Assembly (NCBI GenBank): GCA_024742875.1
Contig: JANSXP010000002.1
Coordinates: forward strand, 62,001-126,000
Source: Planctomycetaceae bacterium
GTDB taxonomy: Bacteria > Planctomycetota > Planctomycetia > Planctomycetales > Planctomycetaceae
DNA length: 64,000 nucleotides
Direction of reading: 5' to 3'
Of the stretch, positions 5,291 to 14,548 are shown in pieces (within the stretch, counting starts at the first letter, position 1; every line of letters starts with the position of its first letter). A model generated the notes under the pieces. That model was given only the letters and a program-made list of their open reading frames with translations, was not told the origin of the DNA and searched no databases. A program made the translations under genes and the position numbers.

Positions 5291-8200
5291 CTAATAATTG
5301 ACCGGCTGTGAGGATCTCAGATAAGCAAACAGATCCCGCAGCTGCTGCGGGCTGAGTGACCGCAGCGTGCCTTCGGGCATGATGGAAACAGGACTCACGC
5401 TCATGTTGTCAATTTCATCACGCGGCAGCGTCACACTGGAACCATCCACGCTGCGCAGCAGCACCACGCGGTCATCCTGATCCGTCAGAAAGCCGTTGAA
5501 CAGCCGACCGTTGACCGTCACGACCTGATGATTCTCATAGCCTTCGCGAATTTCCAGACTCGGATTGATGATGTTGGGCAGCATCCGCGACAGGTCCGTG
5601 CGCTGGAATGATGTCAGATCAGGCCCCACGTCCCCCCCTTCTTCAAACAGGCGATGACAGCGTCCGCAGTTTTTCACGAACAGCCGTTTGCCGGTCCTGG
5701 GATTGCCTGAGCCCTCCGCCAGCGTGGCCGTGACGGCCAGGGTCTCGGCTTTCATTTGTGCGGTTGTCGCTCCCTGAACGGTCCCCCAGATTGTGGCCAC
5801 CGTCTCATGGATCATGGGTCGATCGTGCAGCAGCATGCGACGAACGGCCGCCGCGCTGATTTGGTCACGTGCAACCTGTCCCGCACTCACCGCCTTCAGC
5901 AGGCTCAGTGACCAGTCAGCACGGGAACTGAGCACCGTTTCTGCCACCACGCCTGTTTCCGACGACCAACCAGGCAGACGTTGCAGAATCTCGCGTGCGA
6001 CCTGAGGCTCATTGTAGTGCCCCAAAGCGGTAAGTGTCGCAGCCAGCAGCCGTTCGTCCGAATCATCCAGTGCCGCAAGCAGGATCTGTTTTGCCTGTGC
6101 TGTGCCCAGCTCTCCAAATGTTTCCAGATACAGGCTGCGCTGCGATACCGTGCCGCGTTTTTGCCGAACATCCTGCTGGGCCTCGTCGATGGCAGCCTGA
6201 TCTCCGGTTCGCATCCGCAAAACGGAAGAGGCATGTCCGGTCGCCACGACAGCCGTCATCAGTTCCGCGGGTATCGTATTCAAAGAACGACCCTGCACGG
6301 CCGTCTCAAACCCGACGGCCAGCTGACGGCGAATAACTTCGTCCCCGGATGTCTGCAGCAGCCGAGTGGCGGCCAGCAGTTCGGCTCGTGTGCCGGACTG
6401 CACATAGCGGCGGATCAGCCGCTGCGCGATGTGCTCCGCGTACAGTCGTCCTGACACCACGTCAGCGTCCGAGGCGAGCAGGCTCTGGACCAGCGTGCGA
6501 CCGACATCTGCTGACAGATGACGCTCAATGGCCCACCACAGCATCAGCGGCTGATGGACGTCGTTGGCGTCTTCGTCGTAACTGAGCAGCTGACGAACAA
6601 TGGGAATCGCGTCGGCCGCCGGCAGACGTCGGGAGGATGCGGCCAGTTGTCTTCGCACGAACGGGTACGCCTCATCGGCCGCCAGCTGTCGCAGCGCCGC
6701 AACGGTCGCTGCCCCAACGTGTTTCCGATTGCCCAGCAGCTGCACCACCCAGCCGCGCACAAATGGGTCAACGTGAGCGAGAAGACGAGTGGCTCTGGTT
6801 TCGGACAGTCCGCCCGACTGGTGCAGGGCCCACAGATATTCGCGGGCCAGCTGGCCGGTGGCCTCAAACACCATCTGATCCAGCCGGTCCGTGAGTGAGC
6901 CATCGCGCCGATCACCCAGTACCCGAAGCGCCGTCTGACGCTGGGTGCGTGTTCCGCCGGCCAGCACGCCCATCAGAGCTTCGGACGACATCCTCTGCTG
7001 ATCGCCGACGTCAGCCACCAGCGGCTGTCTGCCCCGCAGCCGATAGATGCGGCCATTCCTACGATCAATGCGTCCCGCATAGTGACTGCTGTGATCAATC
7101 CGCTGTTCATACATATCCGCCACATAAACGGCGCCATCCGGACCGGTCTTGATGTCGACAGGCCGAAACCAGGGATCATCGGTTTTCAGCACACGGCTGA
7201 CATCTTTGGTCTGAAACGAAGTCCCATCGGCCCACACATCGCTAAGCACAATCTGTCCCTGCAGAGGCTCTATGCCAAACAGCCGACCACGGTAAGCGGG
7301 CGGCAGCTGTCGGTCTTCGTAAATGATAAAGTTGTGCGTGAACCGCGCGACCTTGTGATGCTTCATAGCACTGAAGTAGCCAAAGGCATAAGGATTGGAC
7401 AGCGGGCCGTGCTTACCGAACCCCTTGCGCGAGTATCCTCCCTGCACGTAATGAAAGCCGCGCGTGTCGCCGCCGTTGTGCCCGGAAAAGATGTTGCCGA
7501 CCGAATCAATCTCACAGCCGAACGTATTGCCACCACCTTCCGCGAAGACTTCAAACGTTCTGCGCTCCGGATGGTATCGCCAGATCTGCTGCCCCATAGT
7601 CTGCACGGCAGGCCTGCGGGAACCGGGTTGCCGCACAGCCGCGGACACCGTGCTGCCCTGAGCGCCGTACAGCCAGCCATCCGGCCCAAACCGCAGGCTG
7701 TTGATGACCGAATGGGAGTCCTCCAGCCCAAATCCTTCCAGCAGCACCTGCGGATCGCCATCAGGAACATCATCGCCGTCCAGATCAGGATAGAACAGCA
7801 GATACGGCGGATTGGTGACGAACACACCTCCACGACCGATGGCAAAAGACGTGGCGATGTTCAGACCGTCCACGAACGTCGTATGCGAATCGAGTCGACC
7901 GTCGCCGGTGGTGTCCTCATGAATGGAAATGCGGTCCCGCCCAGCTGCACCAAACGGCGGTGGTTCGGGCACACGGTCGTAGACGCTGCGCAGGTACACG
8001 TCCCGGCTGACCATGCTGACACCAGCCACGTCAGGATACTGCCGATACTCCATCACCCACAGTCGGCCACGGGCGTCCCATGCCATAAACAGCGGCTGGC
8101 TGATCTCCGGCTCTGACAGCACCAGTTCCAGCTGCAGATCATCGGCCAGCTCAAACGAATCCAGGGCCGCCTGTGGCGACAGGGCAGCGCGGTCACCCGC

Positions 8201-8794
8201 TCTTTGTGCAATAAACCGCTCGACATCCGGGACTGCTTCCACGGTCTCAAAAGTGGGCGCGTCAGCTGTCGCTTGCGTGGCCCAGGCGGGATCGTCCCCC
8301 GGTCGATACAGCCATTCCCCGGACAGACGAATGCCCTCCTGCCGCTTTCTGTGCACCAGCACAGGCGGGGCGACACTGAAGTTGGGTCGGGGGTCATCCT
8401 GAAACACGCGAATCGCCAGCGTGTTGACTTTGCCCGGGCGCAGCAGCTTTTCCACAGAAAATCGCCCGGTCGCTCCCAGACCACTGCGATAAACGGGCGG
8501 CAGACTGCCGATGGCTCCCGCCGTGGTTCCGTTGATCAAAATCACACGAGCATCATCCAGCGCCTCGACAGAAAGCTGGATTGTTCCGTCTGTCCAGTCC
8601 GGTGGAATCCGTACGTCACAGCGATACCAGCTATAGCCGTCAACAGGCTTTCGCGGTCCGGCAGGCACACGTCGCCATGCATCCGGAATCTGCAGGCGGT
8701 GCCACTCGGCGGCGGACGTGGGTGCCCCGATCTTTACCTCATCCGCAGTCGCCAGCGAACACACCGCCGCGGCTGTCACCAGCCATCTGATCAT
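5291..8794 (-). CDS. PVC-type haem-binding membrane-bound dehydrogenase
   Basis: This large exported protein (1167 residues from this start) has the planctomycete/verrucomicrobial layout seen in TIGR02604/TIGR02603 proteins. After a signal peptide (MIRWLVTAAAVCSLATA) comes a beta-sandwich of glycoside-hydrolase-2 sugar-binding type, then a glucose/sorbosone-dehydrogenase-like propeller (from about residue 220, beginning ELADDLQLELVLSEPEI), then HEAT-like helical repeats, then a C-terminal cytochrome c domain with CGRCH about 120 residues from the end. A periplasmic redox role on sugars is usually assumed but rarely proven. I chose the ATG at 8794 over one nine codons earlier because it begins the signal peptide directly and has GAGAAGG upstream. 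It lies downstream of the AAA/PspA cluster on the same strand, 116 bases away. Confidence 0.88.
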   Translation of the reverse strand: MIRWLVTAAAVCSLATADEVKIGAPTSAAEWHRLQIPDAWRRVPAGPRKPVDGYSWYRCDVRIPPDWTDGTIQLSVEALDDARVILINGTTAGAIGSLPPVYRSGLGATGRFSVEKLLRPGKVNTLAIRVFQDDPRPNFSVAPPVLVHRKRQEGIRLSGEWLYRPGDDPAWATQATADAPTFETVEAVPDVERFIAQRAGDRAALSPQAALDSFELADDLQLELVLSEPEISQPLFMAWDARGRLWVMEYRQYPDVAGVSMVSRDVYLRSVYDRVPEPPPFGAAGRDRISIHEDTTGDGRLDSHTTFVDGLNIATSFAIGRGGVFVTNPPYLLFYPDLDGDDVPDGDPQVLLEGFGLEDSHSVINSLRFGPDGWLYGAQGSTVSAAVRQPGSRRPAVQTMGQQIWRYHPERRTFEVFAEGGGNTFGCEIDSVGNIFSGHNGGDTRGFHYVQGGYSRKGFGKHGPLSNPYAFGYFSAMKHHKVARFTHNFIIYEDRQLPPAYRGRLFGIEPLQGQIVLSDVWADGTSFQTKDVSRVLKTDDPWFRPVDIKTGPDGAVYVADMYEQRIDHSSHYAGRIDRRNGRIYRLRGRQPLVADVGDQQRMSSEALMGVLAGGTRTQRQTALRVLGDRRDGSLTDRLDQMVFEATGQLAREYLWALHQSGGLSETRATRLLAHVDPFVRGWVVQLLGNRKHVGAATVAALRQLAADEAYPFVRRQLAASSRRLPAADAIPIVRQLLSYDEDANDVHQPLMLWWAIERHLSADVGRTLVQSLLASDADVVSGRLYAEHIAQRLIRRYVQSGTRAELLAATRLLQTSGDEVIRRQLAVGFETAVQGRSLNTIPAELMTAVVATGHASSVLRMRTGDQAAIDEAQQDVRQKRGTVSQRSLYLETFGELGTAQAKQILLAALDDSDERLLAATLTALGHYNEPQVAREILQRLPGWSSETGVVAETVLSSRADWSLSLLKAVSAGQVARDQISAAAVRRMLLHDRPMIHETVATIWGTVQGATTAQMKAETLAVTATLAEGSGNPRTGKRLFVKNCGRCHRLFEEGGDVGPDLTSFQRTDLSRMLPNIINPSLEIREGYENHQVVTVNGRLFNGFLTDQDDRVVLLRSVDGSSVTLPRDEIDNMSVSPVSIMPEGTLRSLSPQQLRDLFAYLRSSQPVNY

Positions 8795-8910
8795 ATCCCG
8801 ACCCTTCTCGGAAACTCCCAACCGCAGATCGCTGCGACGGCCGTTCGAGGTTGCCGATTATCGCCGCGACGATCGAATTCTAACAGCAACGCGTTCCTGT
8901 CTGTATGTGA

Positions 8911-9198
8911 TCAGCCGCGGAACATGGACGCCCGCATCTTCTGCATCTCATAGGTGAACTGCATGATATCGTAAGCATTCAGCTCACACAGCAGCCGCGT
9001 GACTTTGGCGTGCGTCTCGTCATCGAGCCCCTCTTCCACGTCCTTCATCACTTCAACCAGACGAGCTTCCTGATCACTGATTTCTTTATCCGAAATCACG
9101 CCATCCTGAAACGCGCGGACAAAACTGTCCAGCTGCTTGGCATATTCGTCGATCAGTGGTTCGTTGGTATCCGGGTCAATCCAGCTCTTGCGTGTCAT
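8911..9198 (-). CDS. Small conserved-looking helical protein, third gene of PspA-AAA cluster
   Basis: I do not recognise a family. The 95-residue protein is soluble, acidic and predicted to be almost wholly helical. It begins MTRKSWIDPDTNEPLIDEYA and ends with a Met-rich helix (EMQKMRASMFRG). There is no signal peptide or membrane segment. It starts 47 bases after the AAA ATPase stop, with GGAAAG in front of the ATG, so it probably belongs to the same transcript as the ATPase and PspA. Context suggests an accessory or adaptor of the ATPase; this is inference. Confidence 0.7.
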   Translation of the reverse strand: MTRKSWIDPDTNEPLIDEYAKQLDSFVRAFQDGVISDKEISDQEARLVEVMKDVEEGLDDETHAKVTRLLCELNAYDIMQFTYEMQKMRASMFRG

Positions 9199-9245
9199 GA
9201 GACGTTCTTTCCAAAGCGTGGACCGTCAGCGTCCACAGGGTTGAG

Positions 9246-11018
9246 TTAAAGTTGTTCCACGAGGTTGCGCATTTTTGTCAGCTGCTGCTGCAGTGAAGCG
9301 CGGCCGCCGTCCGCTTGCAGAGCTTCACGCCACTGCTCATTCAGAAAATCCATCTGTGTGCATTCCAGGACGGCCGCGACTTCCTGCATGTCCTTCTCCA
9401 GCCCCTGGGCAGACGGAATGAACTCGCGCAGCGCCTGATCGATGTCTTCAGACCGCACGTCTGTGCGACCATCCACCAGCGCAATGCGTCTCGCGGTCAG
9501 CACCACACTTTCAATATCCGCACCGCTGAGTTCCTGATGACGGTCGTCCAGGCGGATGGCGTCCTCGGCAATCGTCACATCATTTTTGCGGCCCATCACC
9601 TGAAACATCTGCCGGATTTCCGGCTCACTGTCAGGATAGAACAGGGGAATGTGTACCTCCGCGCGTCCCTGTCGCTTCAGGTCGATTGGCAGCAGGTCAG
9701 GCCGACAGGTCAGCAGCATCCAGATAATACGGCCGCGGTACCGCGTGTCGCCCATCTGCTGAGCGATCATCGAAAAGATGCGGCCGCTGGTTCCCGAGTC
9801 TCCACCCTGATTGCGGTCTCCCAGCGAGGCGTCGGCCTCGTCAATAATCACAATCACGGGCCCCAGACTGCGCAGCACCGTCAGCACACGCTGCAGGTTG
9901 CCTTCTGTCTCTCCCACATACTTGCTGCGAAAATTCTTCAGTTTGACACACGGGATCCCAATCGAACCCGCGTAACATTCCGCCAGAAACGTCTTGCCGG
10001 TTCCCACCGGACCGCACACCAGGTATCCCATCGGCGCCGCGTCCGAATGACCTTCGGCAATCAGCTGTGCGTCCTGTCGCAGCCGGCGGCAGCCCGCTTC
10101 ATGCCCCACCACAAGGTCCAGTGTGTGCCGCGGTTCCACAAACTCCAGAAAGCCGCCGCACTGGCGTTCGATGGCCACTTTTTTGAGGCTGCGAAACTGC
10201 TGGCTGGATACTCCACTGGTGCGGGCCGCCTGGGAAAGCAGCTGCTCCAGACTGACCAGACTGAGCCCGTTGGAATTGCTGATCAGCTGCTCAGCCGTGA
10301 GCACATCGGGCGTGGAACCATCACCCACACTCTTCGCCTCGGCGGTGACAAACCGCTCCCGCGCGGCGCGATCAGGCATGCCCACTTCGACAGTCGACAC
10401 ATAGGGGCTTTGGGTCAGCCGTTCATTGACCTCTGACAGGCTTTCGCACACCAGAAAAAAGGCCATGTTGACACGACGGATGTACGGGTTGCGGGCCCAG
10501 TCCAGAAATCGCACCACACGTGACGCGATGGCGCCGGAAATCTGCACAGGATCACCGGGAGGCACCAGATAATTGCCGTAGTCAAATACGACCGCCAGGC
10601 GGCTGCGTTTTTCCGGATCATCCTCGACCAGGTAGCGTTCGATCATCTGGTCCAGTGTGAGCAGGATGTCGTCCGTTTTACGCGACCAGTTGCGATAGTG
10701 ACCAAACAGGCCGGTCAGCTGCCGCATCATCTCCTGATGACGCTCTGAGTTGCGGCCGGCCAGCGCCTGCAGTCCTTTACTGAGATTATGCTGCAGCACA
10801 TTCTCCCAGCGACCAAACAGATACTCGCCCAAAAACGCGGGCACACTGAGAAACTCCCAGCCGCCGGGAGTCTGGCAGGGCACAAGGTCATTCACGTTGC
10901 CGTGCAGCACGAAGAAGCTGGACGTTCCGGAAAAGAACGACGTGGCCACTTCGCGAGCCCATTCGGGATACCAGTCAGGAAGTTCCGGCTGCACAGTGGG
11001 TTGGCTGACATCAGACAT
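9246..11018 (-). CDS. AAA ATPase, Ycf46-like, beside PspA
   Basis: This is a 590-residue cytoplasmic AAA-family ATPase. The C-terminal half is a complete classic AAA module: Walker A GPVGTGKT (336-343), Walker B VIVIIDEAD (388-396), a candidate arginine finger in KRQGR (448-452), and a helical lid with SGADIESVVLTARR like CDC48/FtsH/Vps4-type ATPases. The N-terminal half (about 20-230) looks like a degenerate ATPase domain without a P-loop, which is the layout of Ycf46-type proteins. It sits 68 bases after the pspA-like gene and 47 before a small helical protein, all on one strand. A role in remodelling PspA assemblies at the membrane is inferred from the neighbourhood. No clear Shine-Dalgarno sequence precedes the ATG. 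Confidence 0.85.
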   Translation of the reverse strand: MSDVSQPTVQPELPDWYPEWAREVATSFFSGTSSFFVLHGNVNDLVPCQTPGGWEFLSVPAFLGEYLFGRWENVLQHNLSKGLQALAGRNSERHQEMMRQLTGLFGHYRNWSRKTDDILLTLDQMIERYLVEDDPEKRSRLAVVFDYGNYLVPPGDPVQISGAIASRVVRFLDWARNPYIRRVNMAFFLVCESLSEVNERLTQSPYVSTVEVGMPDRAARERFVTAEAKSVGDGSTPDVLTAEQLISNSNGLSLVSLEQLLSQAARTSGVSSQQFRSLKKVAIERQCGGFLEFVEPRHTLDLVVGHEAGCRRLRQDAQLIAEGHSDAAPMGYLVCGPVGTGKTFLAECYAGSIGIPCVKLKNFRSKYVGETEGNLQRVLTVLRSLGPVIVIIDEADASLGDRNQGGDSGTSGRIFSMIAQQMGDTRYRGRIIWMLLTCRPDLLPIDLKRQGRAEVHIPLFYPDSEPEIRQMFQVMGRKNDVTIAEDAIRLDDRHQELSGADIESVVLTARRIALVDGRTDVRSEDIDQALREFIPSAQGLEKDMQEVAAVLECTQMDFLNEQWREALQADGGRASLQQQLTKMRNLVEQL

Positions 11019-11086
11019 AGGGCAGCATCCGGCGGACCAGAAAAAACGAAACCGGCACAGCGACCGGCAGGATCACGCACGAACGA

Positions 11087-11836
11087 CTAGTTGGTTTCCG
11101 TCTGTCGCTGCGCCGGGCCGAGGTCTTTGGCCTCCTCACTCACGTTGGCGGTCTGCGGCGTAATGAGACCCAGGTCCATTTCGAACTGCTTCAGTGCACT
11201 TTCGGCCATAGCCGCTTCAGCGGCCGCTTCGCGTTCAATTTCTTCCATCCCTTCTTCTGACAGATCAGACGCCACGCGAGCCTTAGCGCGATTCGTGTCA
11301 ATCTGGTCCTGCAGAATCGACTCGATCTGCCCCATGTCCGTGGTGACATCAAAATTGAACGTGCCAGCCAGCTCGGCAAGTTCCGCTTCGGCGCGGCTCA
11401 TTTTGATTTCCGCGTCATACTTTTTGATCTTGTCCTTAATCTCGCTGACCTTGGACGTAGCGCGTTTGATTTTGGCCACATTGTTGTCGTACGCCTTCTC
11501 GTGCATCTCGAGCTGGGCCACGTTTTCGGCCATCTCATCTTTGGCCTTCTGCAGTTCCAGGGCAAATTTCGCGGCCGTTTCGCGATCGCCGGCCTGCAGG
11601 TACGACTTCACTTTGCCTTCCAGCTGAGCGACGTGCTTTTTGTCGCCATCCACCTGACGAGACACTCGCTCCACCAGGGCCCGATACTGCGCCAACCCCT
11701 CGCGTCCGGTCTTCAGCTGCTCCACCGCCTGGTCATATTCGTACTGCATCTGTGCGATGGGGTCGGCCGTCCAGAAGAAGTTGGCCAGTTTGTTCAGTTG
11801 TGCCTTAAACGAACGCCAGAGCTTGCCAATGATCAT
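11087..11836 (-). CDS. PspA/IM30 family membrane-stress protein
   Basis: PspA/IM30 (Vipp1) proteins are peripheral membrane proteins that form rods or rings and protect or reshape the inner membrane; they belong to the ESCRT-III superfamily. The 249-residue sequence is almost all charged helix, with an amphipathic N-terminus (KLWRSFKAQLNKLANFF), long coiled-coil helices (about 35-160) and a less conserved C-terminal tail ending in GPAQRQTETN. The tail makes it slightly longer than the usual 220-230 residues. AGAAAG lies before the ATG. It is first in the cluster with the AAA ATPase and the 95-residue protein. No pspF, pspB or pspC is nearby. Confidence 0.88.
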   Translation of the reverse strand: MIIGKLWRSFKAQLNKLANFFWTADPIAQMQYEYDQAVEQLKTGREGLAQYRALVERVSRQVDGDKKHVAQLEGKVKSYLQAGDRETAAKFALELQKAKDEMAENVAQLEMHEKAYDNNVAKIKRATSKVSEIKDKIKKYDAEIKMSRAEAELAELAGTFNFDVTTDMGQIESILQDQIDTNRAKARVASDLSEEGMEEIEREAAAEAAMAESALKQFEMDLGLITPQTANVSEEAKDLGPAQRQTETN

Positions 11837-12036: not shown

Positions 12037-12072
12037 CAAAAAACGGCAGCAACCCGCACAGGTTGCTGCCGT
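12037..12072 (-). terminator. Strong Rho-independent terminator after the Gly/Arg repeat protein gene
   Basis: Read on the minus strand, a perfect 12-bp stem pairs ACGGCAGCAACC (12061-12072) with GGTTGCTGCCGT (12043-12054) around a six-base loop, and a run of T follows (12038-12042 on the plus strand is all A). It lies 38 bases past the stop of the minus-strand gene at 12110 and insulates it from pspA. Confidence 0.9.
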
Positions 12073-12109
12073 CTGAATGCTCGTCCAGCCAGTAAACTCA
12101 AATCACGGC

Positions 12110-13306
12110 TTAGAAGATGTCGTCATCATCCAGTGACGGACGCTGACGCTCGCCACCGTCTCCACCGCGACCTCCACGATCTCCGCCGCGGCCACGACCA
12201 CCACCGGGTCCGCCCGGTCCGCCACCCTGACCACCGGGACCCCCAAAGCCACCACGACCGCCGCCGGGGCCGCCCTGACCGCGACCACCGCCTGGGCCAC
12301 CCTGACCGCCGCCCGGGCCACCGAAGCCGCCGCGGCCTCGACCACCAAAGTTTCGACTCAGAGCACGCATGTCCAGCTCAAAGGGCTCGCCCTTCATTTT
12401 CTCCATAGTGGCTTTCTGAGCGTCGGTCAGAACGGCCATCAGCTTCTCTTCGCCCTCTTTACGAATGGCTTCCATCTTCTTTCGGACTTCATCAAAGTCA
12501 GGCCGCTCGCCGCCCTGACTGAACATCTCCTGCATTTCTTTACGCAGATTGTTGGATGCCTCCTGGCCAGCCTCAGCCGCTTCTTCCATTTTGGCAAGCT
12601 GATCCTCACTGACGGACAGATCCTTGCGCATCTTCTCATCTGACTTCAGAACAGTCAGAATGTTGCCACGTGTCTTCAGCTGAAACACGATCTGATCCAG
12701 TCGCTCTACCTGCTCCGGCTCCAGCAGTGCATTCAGCGTGGCATCGGTTTTTTCCACGAGTGCTTCGCGATCTTTGGTCATCTTCTCAAAGAATTCGCGA
12801 CGTTCTTCATCGCTCATGCTGCGAATCTCGTCGAAGTTGGTGGGACGCGCTTCGCTCTGCTCTTCACGGAAGGCATCAATCGCGGCGTCAATCAAAGCGG
12901 CCTGACCGTCATCCACTTTCAGCTCATCGCGAACGTCGTCCAGCCCCAGCAGAGTTGCTCGAGCAATGGTGGTCGATCGTGTTCCGCCAAAGCCGCCGCG
13001 CTGTGTACCACCACCAAAACCACCTCGCTGGCCGCCACCAAATCCTCCACGCTGGCCACCACCAAATCCTCCACGCTGGCCACCGCGATCACCCCGGTCA
13101 CCCCGGTCACCCCGGTCACCCCGGTCACCCCGGTCACCCCGGTCACCCCGGTCACCACCACGCTGGCCTCCTCGCTGGCCACCGCGCTGTCGTCCGCCTT
13201 CCTCTCCACCTCGCCCTCCGGGCGGTTGTGCCTGCACGGCAGCGCTCAGCGCCATCGCCATGCAGCAGGCAAATGCGGATAACCTCAGAAATCGGGTCGT
13301 TGTCAT
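12110..13306 (-). CDS. Secreted Gly/Arg/Asp-repeat protein with Spy/LTxxQ-like core
   Basis: This 398-residue exported protein has a signal peptide (MTTTRFLRLSAFACCMAMALS..., cleavage near VQAQ) and three parts. Residues about 25-110 are low-complexity RGG/GDR/GFGGGQRG repeats, including eight successive GDR triplets. Residues about 115-310 are charged helix with periodic motifs (MSDEERREFFEKM, LLEPEQVERLDQI, LTDAQKATMEKM) resembling the LTxxQ/Spy-CpxP-type periplasmic helical proteins. The C-terminus is again Gly/Arg-rich and ends DDDDIF. The function is unknown; in planctomycetes such proteins are common but uncharacterised. GGGAG precedes the ATG by six bases. A strong terminator follows. 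Confidence 0.75.
   Translation of the reverse strand: MTTTRFLRLSAFACCMAMALSAAVQAQPPGGRGGEEGGRQRGGQRGGQRGGDRGDRGDRGDRGDRGDRGDRGDRGGQRGGFGGGQRGGFGGGQRGGFGGGTQRGGFGGTRSTTIARATLLGLDDVRDELKVDDGQAALIDAAIDAFREEQSEARPTNFDEIRSMSDEERREFFEKMTKDREALVEKTDATLNALLEPEQVERLDQIVFQLKTRGNILTVLKSDEKMRKDLSVSEDQLAKMEEAAEAGQEASNNLRKEMQEMFSQGGERPDFDEVRKKMEAIRKEGEEKLMAVLTDAQKATMEKMKGEPFELDMRALSRNFGGRGRGGFGGPGGGQGGPGGGRGQGGPGGGRGGFGGPGGQGGGPGGPGGGRGRGGDRGGRGGDGGERQRPSLDDDDIF
13006..13080. repeat. 24-bp in-frame repeats coding GGFGGGQR
   Basis: Within the minus-strand secreted protein gene, about three imperfect tandem copies of a 24-base unit (containing CACCACCAAATCCTCCACGC) encode the repeated peptide RGGFGGGQ. They lie next to the 9-bp array and extend the low-complexity domain. 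Confidence 0.75.
13082..13153. repeat. 9-bp perfect tandem repeat encoding GDR
   Basis: Seven identical copies of ACCCCGGTC run from 13091 to 13153, with one diverged copy (ACCGCGATC) at 13082-13090. On the minus strand this encodes eight GDR triplets. The nucleotide identity, without synonymous drift, points to recent expansion by slippage. Copy-number changes would stay in frame. Confidence 0.95.
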
Positions 13307-13420: not shown

Positions 13421-14548
13421 CTAATATTCGCCGGATTCCGTGTCCCCGACAGCTGTGGCGATGCGATGCGTGGGGACCGGACGCCCCGGTTTAAAGCTCT
13501 GCGTCCGCCGAAATTCGGCCGTGGCCCCCGCAGCCGAAATGGCCTGCTGGACCTGAGCCTGGACCATTTTTTCAAGGATTTCCGGGGCGCAGGCCACTCG
13601 GGCGTTCACAATCAGATCAATGGTTTTCACCTGACATCCGGACTTCAGCGAAAGTTCTGCCTCGTTTTCGCTGCTCACCAGATTTGCCACACCGAAAAAT
13701 CCTTCCCAAAGCCCAATCGTCTTCAGGTGGGCTGCCTCGATGTTTTCACTCGCAAGTGCCGACCTCAACCGCTGCACGATATCGAGCAACAGTTCGTCCA
13801 GATCAAACTCCTCCTCACTGCTGACACGTGCACTGCTGTTCAGCCAGCCCAGCTCAGCCTCGCCGTCAGCATAGGTGTCGTAGTCAATCTCCAGTATCCG
13901 GCGGCCGTAGTCACCGTCCTGAGCCAGCCAGTCGGTCAACTGATCAAAGCCGGCTCCCGTTTTCGCTGAGACTCTCAAAACCGGGCGTTCCGGCAGATGG
14001 GCGTGGATCAGAGATTCGAGTTCTCCAGCCGCTTCATCGCTGAGTTCATCACAGCGATTGATCAGCACCAGGTCGGCTTCTTCGATCTGCTTTTTCAGGA
14101 TGTAGGCCGCCTTGGGAGAAAAACCAGTGCCTGGCTCATCACGCAGCACACGACGTCCATGAGACGGTTTGAGAATAACGGCGTAGGGAGCAATCACGAA
14201 CTCCGCATCAAACAGCTGACGAATGGGCTGAATCACGGTGGCGACCAGATCCGTACAACTGCCGACAGGTTCCGCGAGGATCACATCCGGCCGCTGTTTC
14301 TGACCAATGCGTTCGACAGTGGACATCAGCTCATCAAAGTTGCAGCAAAAACATGCGCCTGCCACTTCGCCCACATCGAATCCCAGAGATCTGAGCATGT
14401 TGGTGTCGACAAGATCCTCGGCCTGATCATTGGTCACGATCCCAACGTTGAGCCCCTGCGCGGTGTAATGCGCGGCGAGTCGTGCCAGTGTGGTCGTCTT
14501 GCCGGCTCCCAGAAAACCGCCAACCATGATGTAGCGAATCTGATGCAT
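13421..14548 (-). CDS. CobW/COG0523-family GTPase
   Basis: COG0523 GTPases deliver or help insert metal ions (Zn, Co, Ni) into client proteins. The 375-residue protein has the Walker [11 protein letters not shown] (11-20), the family's metal-binding Cys motif as CFCC (Cys66, Cys68, Cys69), a Walker-B-like ILAEPVGSC segment and an NRCD nucleotide-specificity motif in LINRCDEL. The C-terminal part is not clearly the usual CobW_C domain and contains no His-rich tract. AGAAAG lies before the start. Which metal it handles cannot be told; there is no Zur box or metal enzyme next to it. It lies between the esterase fusion and the repeat protein on the same strand. Confidence 0.87.

Follow-up and report, generated by a model that had tools for sequence, protein, structure and literature searches.

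A conserved gene trio of PspA, a tandem AAA protein and a small helical protein in planctomycetes: a candidate ESCRT-III/Vps4-like module

The gene trio

Three adjoining genes in a 64,000-nucleotide stretch of planctomycete DNA (Planctomycetaceae bacterium, GenBank assembly GCA_024742875.1, contig JANSXP010000002.1, positions 62,001 to 126,000; hereafter the window, meaning the whole stretch analyzed) encode a PspA protein of the ESCRT-III superfamily, a tandem AAA protein and a 95-residue helical protein referred to here as SMALL. The trio is a real conserved unit, and, judging from its sequences, we hold it to be somewhat probable that it is a PspA-remodeling module working like ESCRT-III together with Vps4. 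A first-pass annotation of the window had described three minus-strand genes separated by gaps of 68 bases (pspA to AAA gene) and 47 bases (AAA gene to SMALL gene), and the open reading frames, strands and sizes agree with that description. The genes and the features on which the argument draws are listed below in window coordinates.

11087–11836, minus: pspA (AAA-linked, ESCRT-III superfamily, PF04012; 249 residues), first gene of the trio
11114–11128, minus: PspA tail motif KDLGP, residues 237–241, conserved amid variable neighbors and proposed as a hook for the ATPase
9246–11018, minus: tandem AAA protein gene (590 residues), with an inactive domain 1, an active domain 2 and a conserved helical C-terminal extension
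10149–10976, minus: degenerate AAA domain 1, about residues 15–290, lacking the P-loop lysine, with strands and helices in the model
9990–10013, minus: Walker A, GPVGTGKT, residues 336–343 (alignment of 71)
9903–9935, minus: pore loop 1, NFRSKYVGETE, residues 362–372 (alignment of 71; Afg2 alignment)
9831–9851, minus: Walker B, VIIDEAD, residues 390–396 (alignment of 71)
9249–9422, minus: helical C-terminal extension of the AAA protein, about residues 533–590 (alignment of 71 and model)
8911–9198, minus: SMALL gene (95-residue helical protein of no known family)
12041–12074, minus: 15-pair terminator-like hairpin in the gap separating pspA from its upstream neighbor (consensus scan only)

The first gene had been assigned to PspA/IM30, and its product indeed matches PF04012 over residues 2–215 with 45.3 bits (E 1e-11), exceeding the curated cut-off of 33.9. 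Its best profile matches in the Protein Data Bank (PDB), at profile positions 5–211, are to Vipp1 (sll0617) and are not significant (E 0.09). The N-terminal 20 residues are amphipathic, with a mean hydrophobic moment of 0.51–0.59 over residues 1–18, 3–20 and 5–22 if a helix is assumed. Two further PF04012 genes of the source genome (8.18 Mb in 168 contigs), at C22:67799–68437 and C33:148808–149203, both outscore the window PspA and lack the tail motif in its P-containing form. Since the profile of the AAA-linked PspAs (A6) does not retrieve these paralogs at E 0.01, the window PspA represents a distinct clade.

The third protein is helical, as had been proposed: a model built from 61 sequences has a predicted local distance difference test score (pLDDT) of 91.8 and contains two long helices, at residues 37–56 and 60–93. 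Searches of Pfam, NCBIfam and the PDB gave no credible match for it. Its C-terminus reads F-x-G in 55 of 66 complete relatives (F-R-G in 42), as it does in the window, and W-R-P or otherwise in the rest.

A tandem AAA protein with one intact motor

The middle gene encodes the putative engine of the system. In an alignment of 71 sequences that includes the window's, G336 and V338–K342 of Walker A and D393 and E394 of Walker B occur without exception, in line with the intact GPVGTGKT and IIDEAD motifs reported earlier, and R449 and R452 are likewise invariant; the match to PF00004 (81 bits) covers residues 333–458. Pore loop 1 has Y367 in 69 of the 71 sequences and F in the other two, and by its alignment with SKYLGETE of Afg2 it is of the threading type. 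Further invariant residues (Q538, Q545, E546, V550, L551, E552, C553, T554, L559 and W563) lie in the C-terminal extension, which the model folds into helices at residues 539–552, 561–568 and 572–589. The N-terminal half, previously described as an inactive-looking ATPase, is a degenerate AAA domain with a conserved HGN-V-x-D and no lysine at the expected P-loop position, and the protein model aligns over its full length, if loosely (root-mean-square deviation 8.5), with D1–D2 of p97. The label "Ycf46-like" was not confirmed, although no Ycf46 sequence entered the comparison; the profile search of solved structures ranked Afg2 and Cdc48 best. A role in defense, as an IteA/IetA anti-phage ATPase, was considered and rejected: the protein scores 60 bits in NCBIfam against a cut-off of 510 and 67.6 bits with the PADLOC IetA model, and these matches span the AAA region only.

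PspF is an AAA+ protein held in check by PspA binding, and this precedent of PspA paired with an AAA+ regulatory partner favors the idea that the trio's AAA protein handles PspA as a chaperone or regulator, in loading, storing or sensing it, without ATP-driven disassembly of a polymer. The sensor 1 position points the same way, being S, C or A in all 71 sequences where the Afg2 and Cdc48 alignments show N as usual, which could mean atypical ATPase activity. However, unlike PspF, the AAA protein has no significant match to a DNA-binding domain in the family scan and presumably no enhancer-binding architecture, and the invariance of Walker A, Walker B and R449/R452, along with the threading-type pore loop, speaks against this alternative, which we regard as improbable.

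Conservation of order and co-occurrence

Fifty-eight relatives, the source genome among them, were searched for the AAA protein, a close ortholog being defined by E ≤ 1e-180. Such orthologs occur in 14 of the 58 (8/8 in the genus, 2/28 among other members of the family and 4/22 among other members of the class); pspA lies directly upstream in all 14, and SMALL lies downstream in 12, the contig ending in G023 and none being found in G054. A second set, which partly overlaps the first, comprises 80 named loci at one genome per species, the best 80 of at least 514 relatives, all of them planctomycete records, with Fuerstiella (L076, L077 and L079) among the closest. Here pspA precedes the AAA gene in the same orientation, no more than 1.5 kb away, at 75 loci (absent despite room at three and undecidable at two), and SMALL within 1 kb downstream at 69 (absent at eight, undecidable at three). 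Loss of the order among relatives had been named in advance as evidence against a module; instead, the order is conserved among planctomycetes to an extent well past what chance would give.

The co-occurrence of the three genes extends beyond their linkage. In a sample of 392 genomes from the phylum, the AAA family (E ≤ 1e-50) is present in 54 and its close form in 13: as a fragment in G387, and at E ≤ 1e-170 in 12 more. Members of the PspA clade, taken as profile A6 matches at E ≤ 1e-40, occur in 12 of these 13 genomes, G117 being the one without, and in none of the other 379; SMALL (profile A4, E ≤ 1e-8) likewise occurs in 12 of 13, G387 being the one without, and in 0/379. Because the profiles derive from the linked genes, and because the sampled genomes are not independent of one another, these figures are given as counts with no probability attached. 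Where SMALL does not adjoin the ATPase gene, it was found elsewhere in the genome in eight of ten cases tested (L090 and L132, whose contigs end, were left out); it is missing from G054 and from the genome that holds L087, where 241 bases of contig follow the ATPase gene. Where PspA is absent beside the AAA gene despite room (L096, L101 and L142), it lies elsewhere in the genome in all three cases.

Could the three genes adjoin merely by accident or through shared regulation? The genes beyond SMALL are unrelated in three members of the genus (the window, G002 and G004), and PspA and SMALL can each sit elsewhere in the genome, both of which would suit such an explanation. Yet the order is kept at 47–60% identity, and the parts are present even when unlinked. 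Given the conserved order and the co-occurrence across the 392 genomes, accidental linkage is rejected, with only a very slight chance left to it. The tie to unusual planctomycete membranes suggested by the first-pass annotation is nevertheless weak, considering that the close AAA ortholog is present in 13 of the 392 phylum genomes and in only two of the 28 family members from other genera.

The neighborhoods were compared for the window and nine other loci with the AAA family, seven of them close orthologs. The remaining flanking genes differ between them, except for an upstream family common to three genomes of one taxonomic family, G036, G045 and G049. L040, L041 and L042, from one planctomycete family, share a gene of about 1000–1170 codons (longest open reading frame picked) directly upstream of pspA. 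In other classes, at L163 (G112), L162 (G170), L069 and L073, a different protein, of about 200–250 residues and no clear family, follows or flanks the AAA family member in the place that SMALL would occupy.

A conserved motif at the PspA C-terminus

Beyond about residue 230 the PspA sequence is variable except for a short motif near its end. Among 60 aligned PspAs, K237 is conserved in 98%, L239 in 93% and G240 in 100%, and P241 is present in 78% of 58. The pattern K.[LIMV]G falls within the last 45 residues of 75/75 PspAs of the clade and, equally, within the last 30 of 75/75, whereas 200 shuffles averaged 3.1 and never exceeded 10; the extended form K.[LIMV]GP is found in 50 of the 75. Another 16 AAA-linked loci come in part from genomes included above; the motif is present in 15 of their PspAs, six of them distant, and G054 is the exception. 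By comparison, it is present in seven of 26 PspA-family genes that lie away from the ATPase gene in the same genomes, in one of them with P. As distant AAA-linked PspAs retain the motif in genomes without a SMALL match to profile A4, we infer that the ATPase, and not SMALL, is its reader. The K-x-(L/I/M)-G tail is a possible hook for the ATPase.

A larger system, scattered in some genomes

In many relatives the trio does not make up the entire system but opens a seven-gene operon. In G313 (L157) one strand carries the genes for PspA, a solute-binding/OmpA fusion protein, an ABC permease, an ABC ATPase, a transmembrane (TM)-coiled-coil protein, the AAA protein and SMALL, and in G221, G015 and strain CA13 (L217, L223 and L122) the order is pspA, AAA, SMALL, solute-binding/OmpA, permease, ABC ATPase and TM-coiled-coil. 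All seven genes lie within the fetched stretch at 24 of the 80 named loci (their order was not checked locus by locus); the solute-binding/OmpA gene was detected at 44, is absent at 20 that have 2.5 kb of room and is undecidable at 16.

In the source genome, at least three of the four extra operon genes lie on other contigs: the solute-binding/OmpA gene, 59% identical to its L157 counterpart, on C62, and the ABC ATPase (72%) and TM-coiled-coil (35%) genes on C118. No permease was seen in the C62 and C118 stretches examined, the rest of the genome not having been searched for one. The scattering is not an assembly artifact, since in the single-contig genome G004 the trio, the solute-binding/OmpA–permease pair and the ABC ATPase/TM-coiled-coil pair are likewise far apart. 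The solute-binding/OmpA gene occurs in 16 of 60 genomes searched, all among the 24 with a close AAA ortholog (16/24 versus 0/36 without one).

SMALL keeps varied company. It adjoins pspA without the ATPase gene in G444 (L200), heads the OmpA–permease pair in G441 (L203) and follows the ATPase gene without PspA at L096. That it is found beside PspA, the ATPase or the solute-binding/OmpA gene, each time lacking at least one other trio member, suggests a coupling role.

The larger system raises the question of whether PspA is the true client of the ATPase, or whether the ATPase instead builds, gates or dismantles the TM-coiled-coil protein or the ABC/OmpA assembly, with PspA as a membrane-protecting passenger. 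Of the 392 genomes, 41 encode the TM-coiled-coil protein, and the AAA family (E ≤ 1e-50) is present in 39 of these 41; G117 carries the TM-coiled-coil protein, the AAA protein and SMALL with no PspA match; and in G313 the AAA gene adjoins the TM-coiled-coil gene rather than pspA. On the other hand, G036 and G184 have PspA, the AAA protein and SMALL with no match to the TM-coiled-coil protein at E ≤ 1e-10, and they, together with G045, G049 and G054, have no solute-binding/OmpA match at E ≤ 1e-20, so that the trio can evidently stand alone in G036 and G184. Moreover, none of 27 TM-coiled-coil proteins carries the PspA tail motif, and the idea of the motif as a signal common to all partners was dropped. 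We consider a client other than PspA unlikely, though less so than a purely regulatory role of the ATPase. A separate observation is that the tails of TM-coiled-coil proteins (L108, L136, L216, L218, L220 and others) share approximately P-x-(L/I/M)-L-(R/N), a possible further site of recognition.

Relation to known systems

The trio resembles the ESCRT-III/Vps4 (CdvB/CdvC) arrangement in that a gene for an ESCRT-III-superfamily polymer lies beside one for an AAA ATPase, in that AAA domain 2 superposes on Vps4 and in that the C-terminal tail of the polymer protein is a candidate recognition site. It differs in several respects. Vps4 has a single AAA domain with a C-terminal beta-domain, whereas the trio protein is a tandem with a dead domain 1, has no Vps4 C-terminal family match at E ≤ 1 and is accompanied by an extra small subunit. 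ESCRT-III is recognized through a MIM helix, in place of which the PspA of the trio has its short tail motif; no MIT domain is among the family matches of the AAA protein at E ≤ 1, and its N-terminal half models as an alpha/beta AAA-like domain. The tandem architecture is that of Cdc48/p97, Afg2 and NVL/Rix7, which are its best matches in sequence and structure; unlike Cdc48/p97, domain 1 lacks the P-loop lysine, and the protein starts with this degenerate domain, with no N-terminal substrate domain before it. For the chloroplast Hsp70/CDJ2–Vipp1 system, we know of no operon of the trio's kind. There, chaperones appear to act in Vipp1 disassembly (PMC13051332), a likeness at the level of the PspA/Vipp1 polymer, while the chaperones form an Hsp70 system and not an AAA ring.

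The closest precedent is a prediction. Ravi et al. (2024; PMC11237479), in their section on such pairs, describe PspA in bacteria as the neighbor of a protein that has two AAA domains, the N-terminal copy being inactive, and suggest ATP-dependent remodeling comparable to Snf7 and VPS4; the trio shares the two AAA domains, the inactive first copy and the pspA neighbor, likeness being judged by description. The same section reports longer operons with an ABC ATPase, a permease, a PBPB-OmpA protein and "Snf7 homologs with a TM segment," an arrangement that recurs here in relatives only (L157, L217, L223 and L122). We infer that the TM-coiled-coil protein corresponds to their Snf7–TM protein as that section portrays it; profile comparison showed no similarity to PspA (probability 1.3), and its homology to PspA was accordingly rejected, this being a weak negative from six sequences. 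That section names neither a small third subunit nor a tail motif, and the string "planctomycet" has no occurrence in the main text. Our literature searches, covering titles and the beginnings of abstracts, returned no experimental test of the pair and no mention of SMALL or the tail motif. The ESCRT-III/Vps4 proposal is largely in print for pairs of this kind, which as far as we have seen have only been predicted, and what is new here is SMALL as a third subunit, the tail motif, the co-retention of split genes, the planctomycete distribution and the scattered larger system.

A possible mode of action

The PspA of this clade may form a polymer that coats or scaffolds the inner membrane. The AAA protein would assemble into a ring in which domain 2 hydrolyzes ATP and draws PspA subunits into the pore, the dead domain 1 serving as a scaffold or docking ring and the K-x-(L/I/M)-G-(P) tail of PspA as the likely recognition site. 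SMALL, as a soluble third subunit, would connect PspA and the ATPase with membrane-bound partners, plausibly as a coupling factor. In many relatives the module could serve an envelope-spanning assembly made up of the TM-anchored solute-binding/OmpA protein, the ABC permease with its ATPase and the TM-coiled-coil protein; in the source genome it would probably do so through loci elsewhere, the scattered genes working jointly.

Several observations weigh against such remodeling or against the proposed hook. First, the shuffles overstate the motif statistics, because the sequences that carry the motif share ancestry. Second, a control set of all 26 PspA-family matches away from the ATPase gene in the same genomes (two proteins incomplete) includes seven that end in the loose K.[LIMV]G, mostly one paralog of the genus, and the motif in this form is therefore not exclusive to ATPase-linked PspAs; in six of the seven, the residue after K-x-L-G is S, G or D. 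The P-containing form occurs in one of the 26, in G137 (C37:132336–133001, L231), a 380-residue open frame that matches PspA weakly and has E-K-T-I-G-P-V-S as its C-terminus; it does not lie beside a close AAA ortholog, and the G137 genome carries two AAA-family members. Third, the motif is missing from two PspA-like proteins, one in G060 and one in G163, that are encoded near distant AAA genes and matched by profile A6 only, and G054 has PspA and the AAA protein without SMALL and without the motif's G. Fourth, G117 implies that PspA is not the sole possible client of the ATPase. To these is added the missing MIT domain.

Taken as a statement about family membership, the ESCRT-III/Vps4 analogy fares poorly, the tandem AAA architecture with no MIT domain not being that of Vps4; as a way of working it is plausible, given the intact motor, the threading-type pore loop and the same analogy in print (Ravi et al., 2024). 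A bolder proposal is that the trio is a true counterpart of ESCRT-III/Vps4, in which a ring with dead D1 and live D2 reads the K-x-(L/I/M)-G-P hook of PspA while SMALL links the turnover of PspA to an OmpA/solute-binding ABC assembly anchored to the cell wall, and an envelope-spanning device would thereby drive membrane remodeling; this we put forward tentatively, at distinctly less than even chances. The question of a Vps4-like ATPase for bacterial ESCRT-III proteins, on which the trio bears, is openly debated; bacteria were described as having no clear Vps4 homolog in a 2023 review (PMC7615534). The trio offers a mutable motif and species with minimal, split and seven-gene versions, and with trio, motif and system variants so defined this question becomes directly testable.

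Expression signals and neighboring genes

The hairpin at 12041–12074 fits a unit that starts with pspA. The promoter scan gave no sigma-70-like site upstream of pspA, its single reported site falling within the ATPase gene. An attenuator in the pspA–AAA gap, which might raise the abundance of PspA, was also considered. The window gap contains a weak hairpin, but of 59 such gaps six have a terminator-like hairpin, where 2.0 would be expected, and the eight named relatives inspected have none, for which reason the idea was dropped.

Just upstream of the trio, the minus strand encodes an LTXXQ-family protein whose two ends carry long glycine/arginine-rich repeats (12110–13306), and at 13421–14548 a CobW-like GTPase that scores under the curated NCBIfam equivalog cut-offs. 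Beyond SMALL, at 5291–8821 on the same strand, lies the gene for a 1176-residue PVC-type heme-binding CxxCH protein with HEAT repeats (TIGR02604, TIGR02603).

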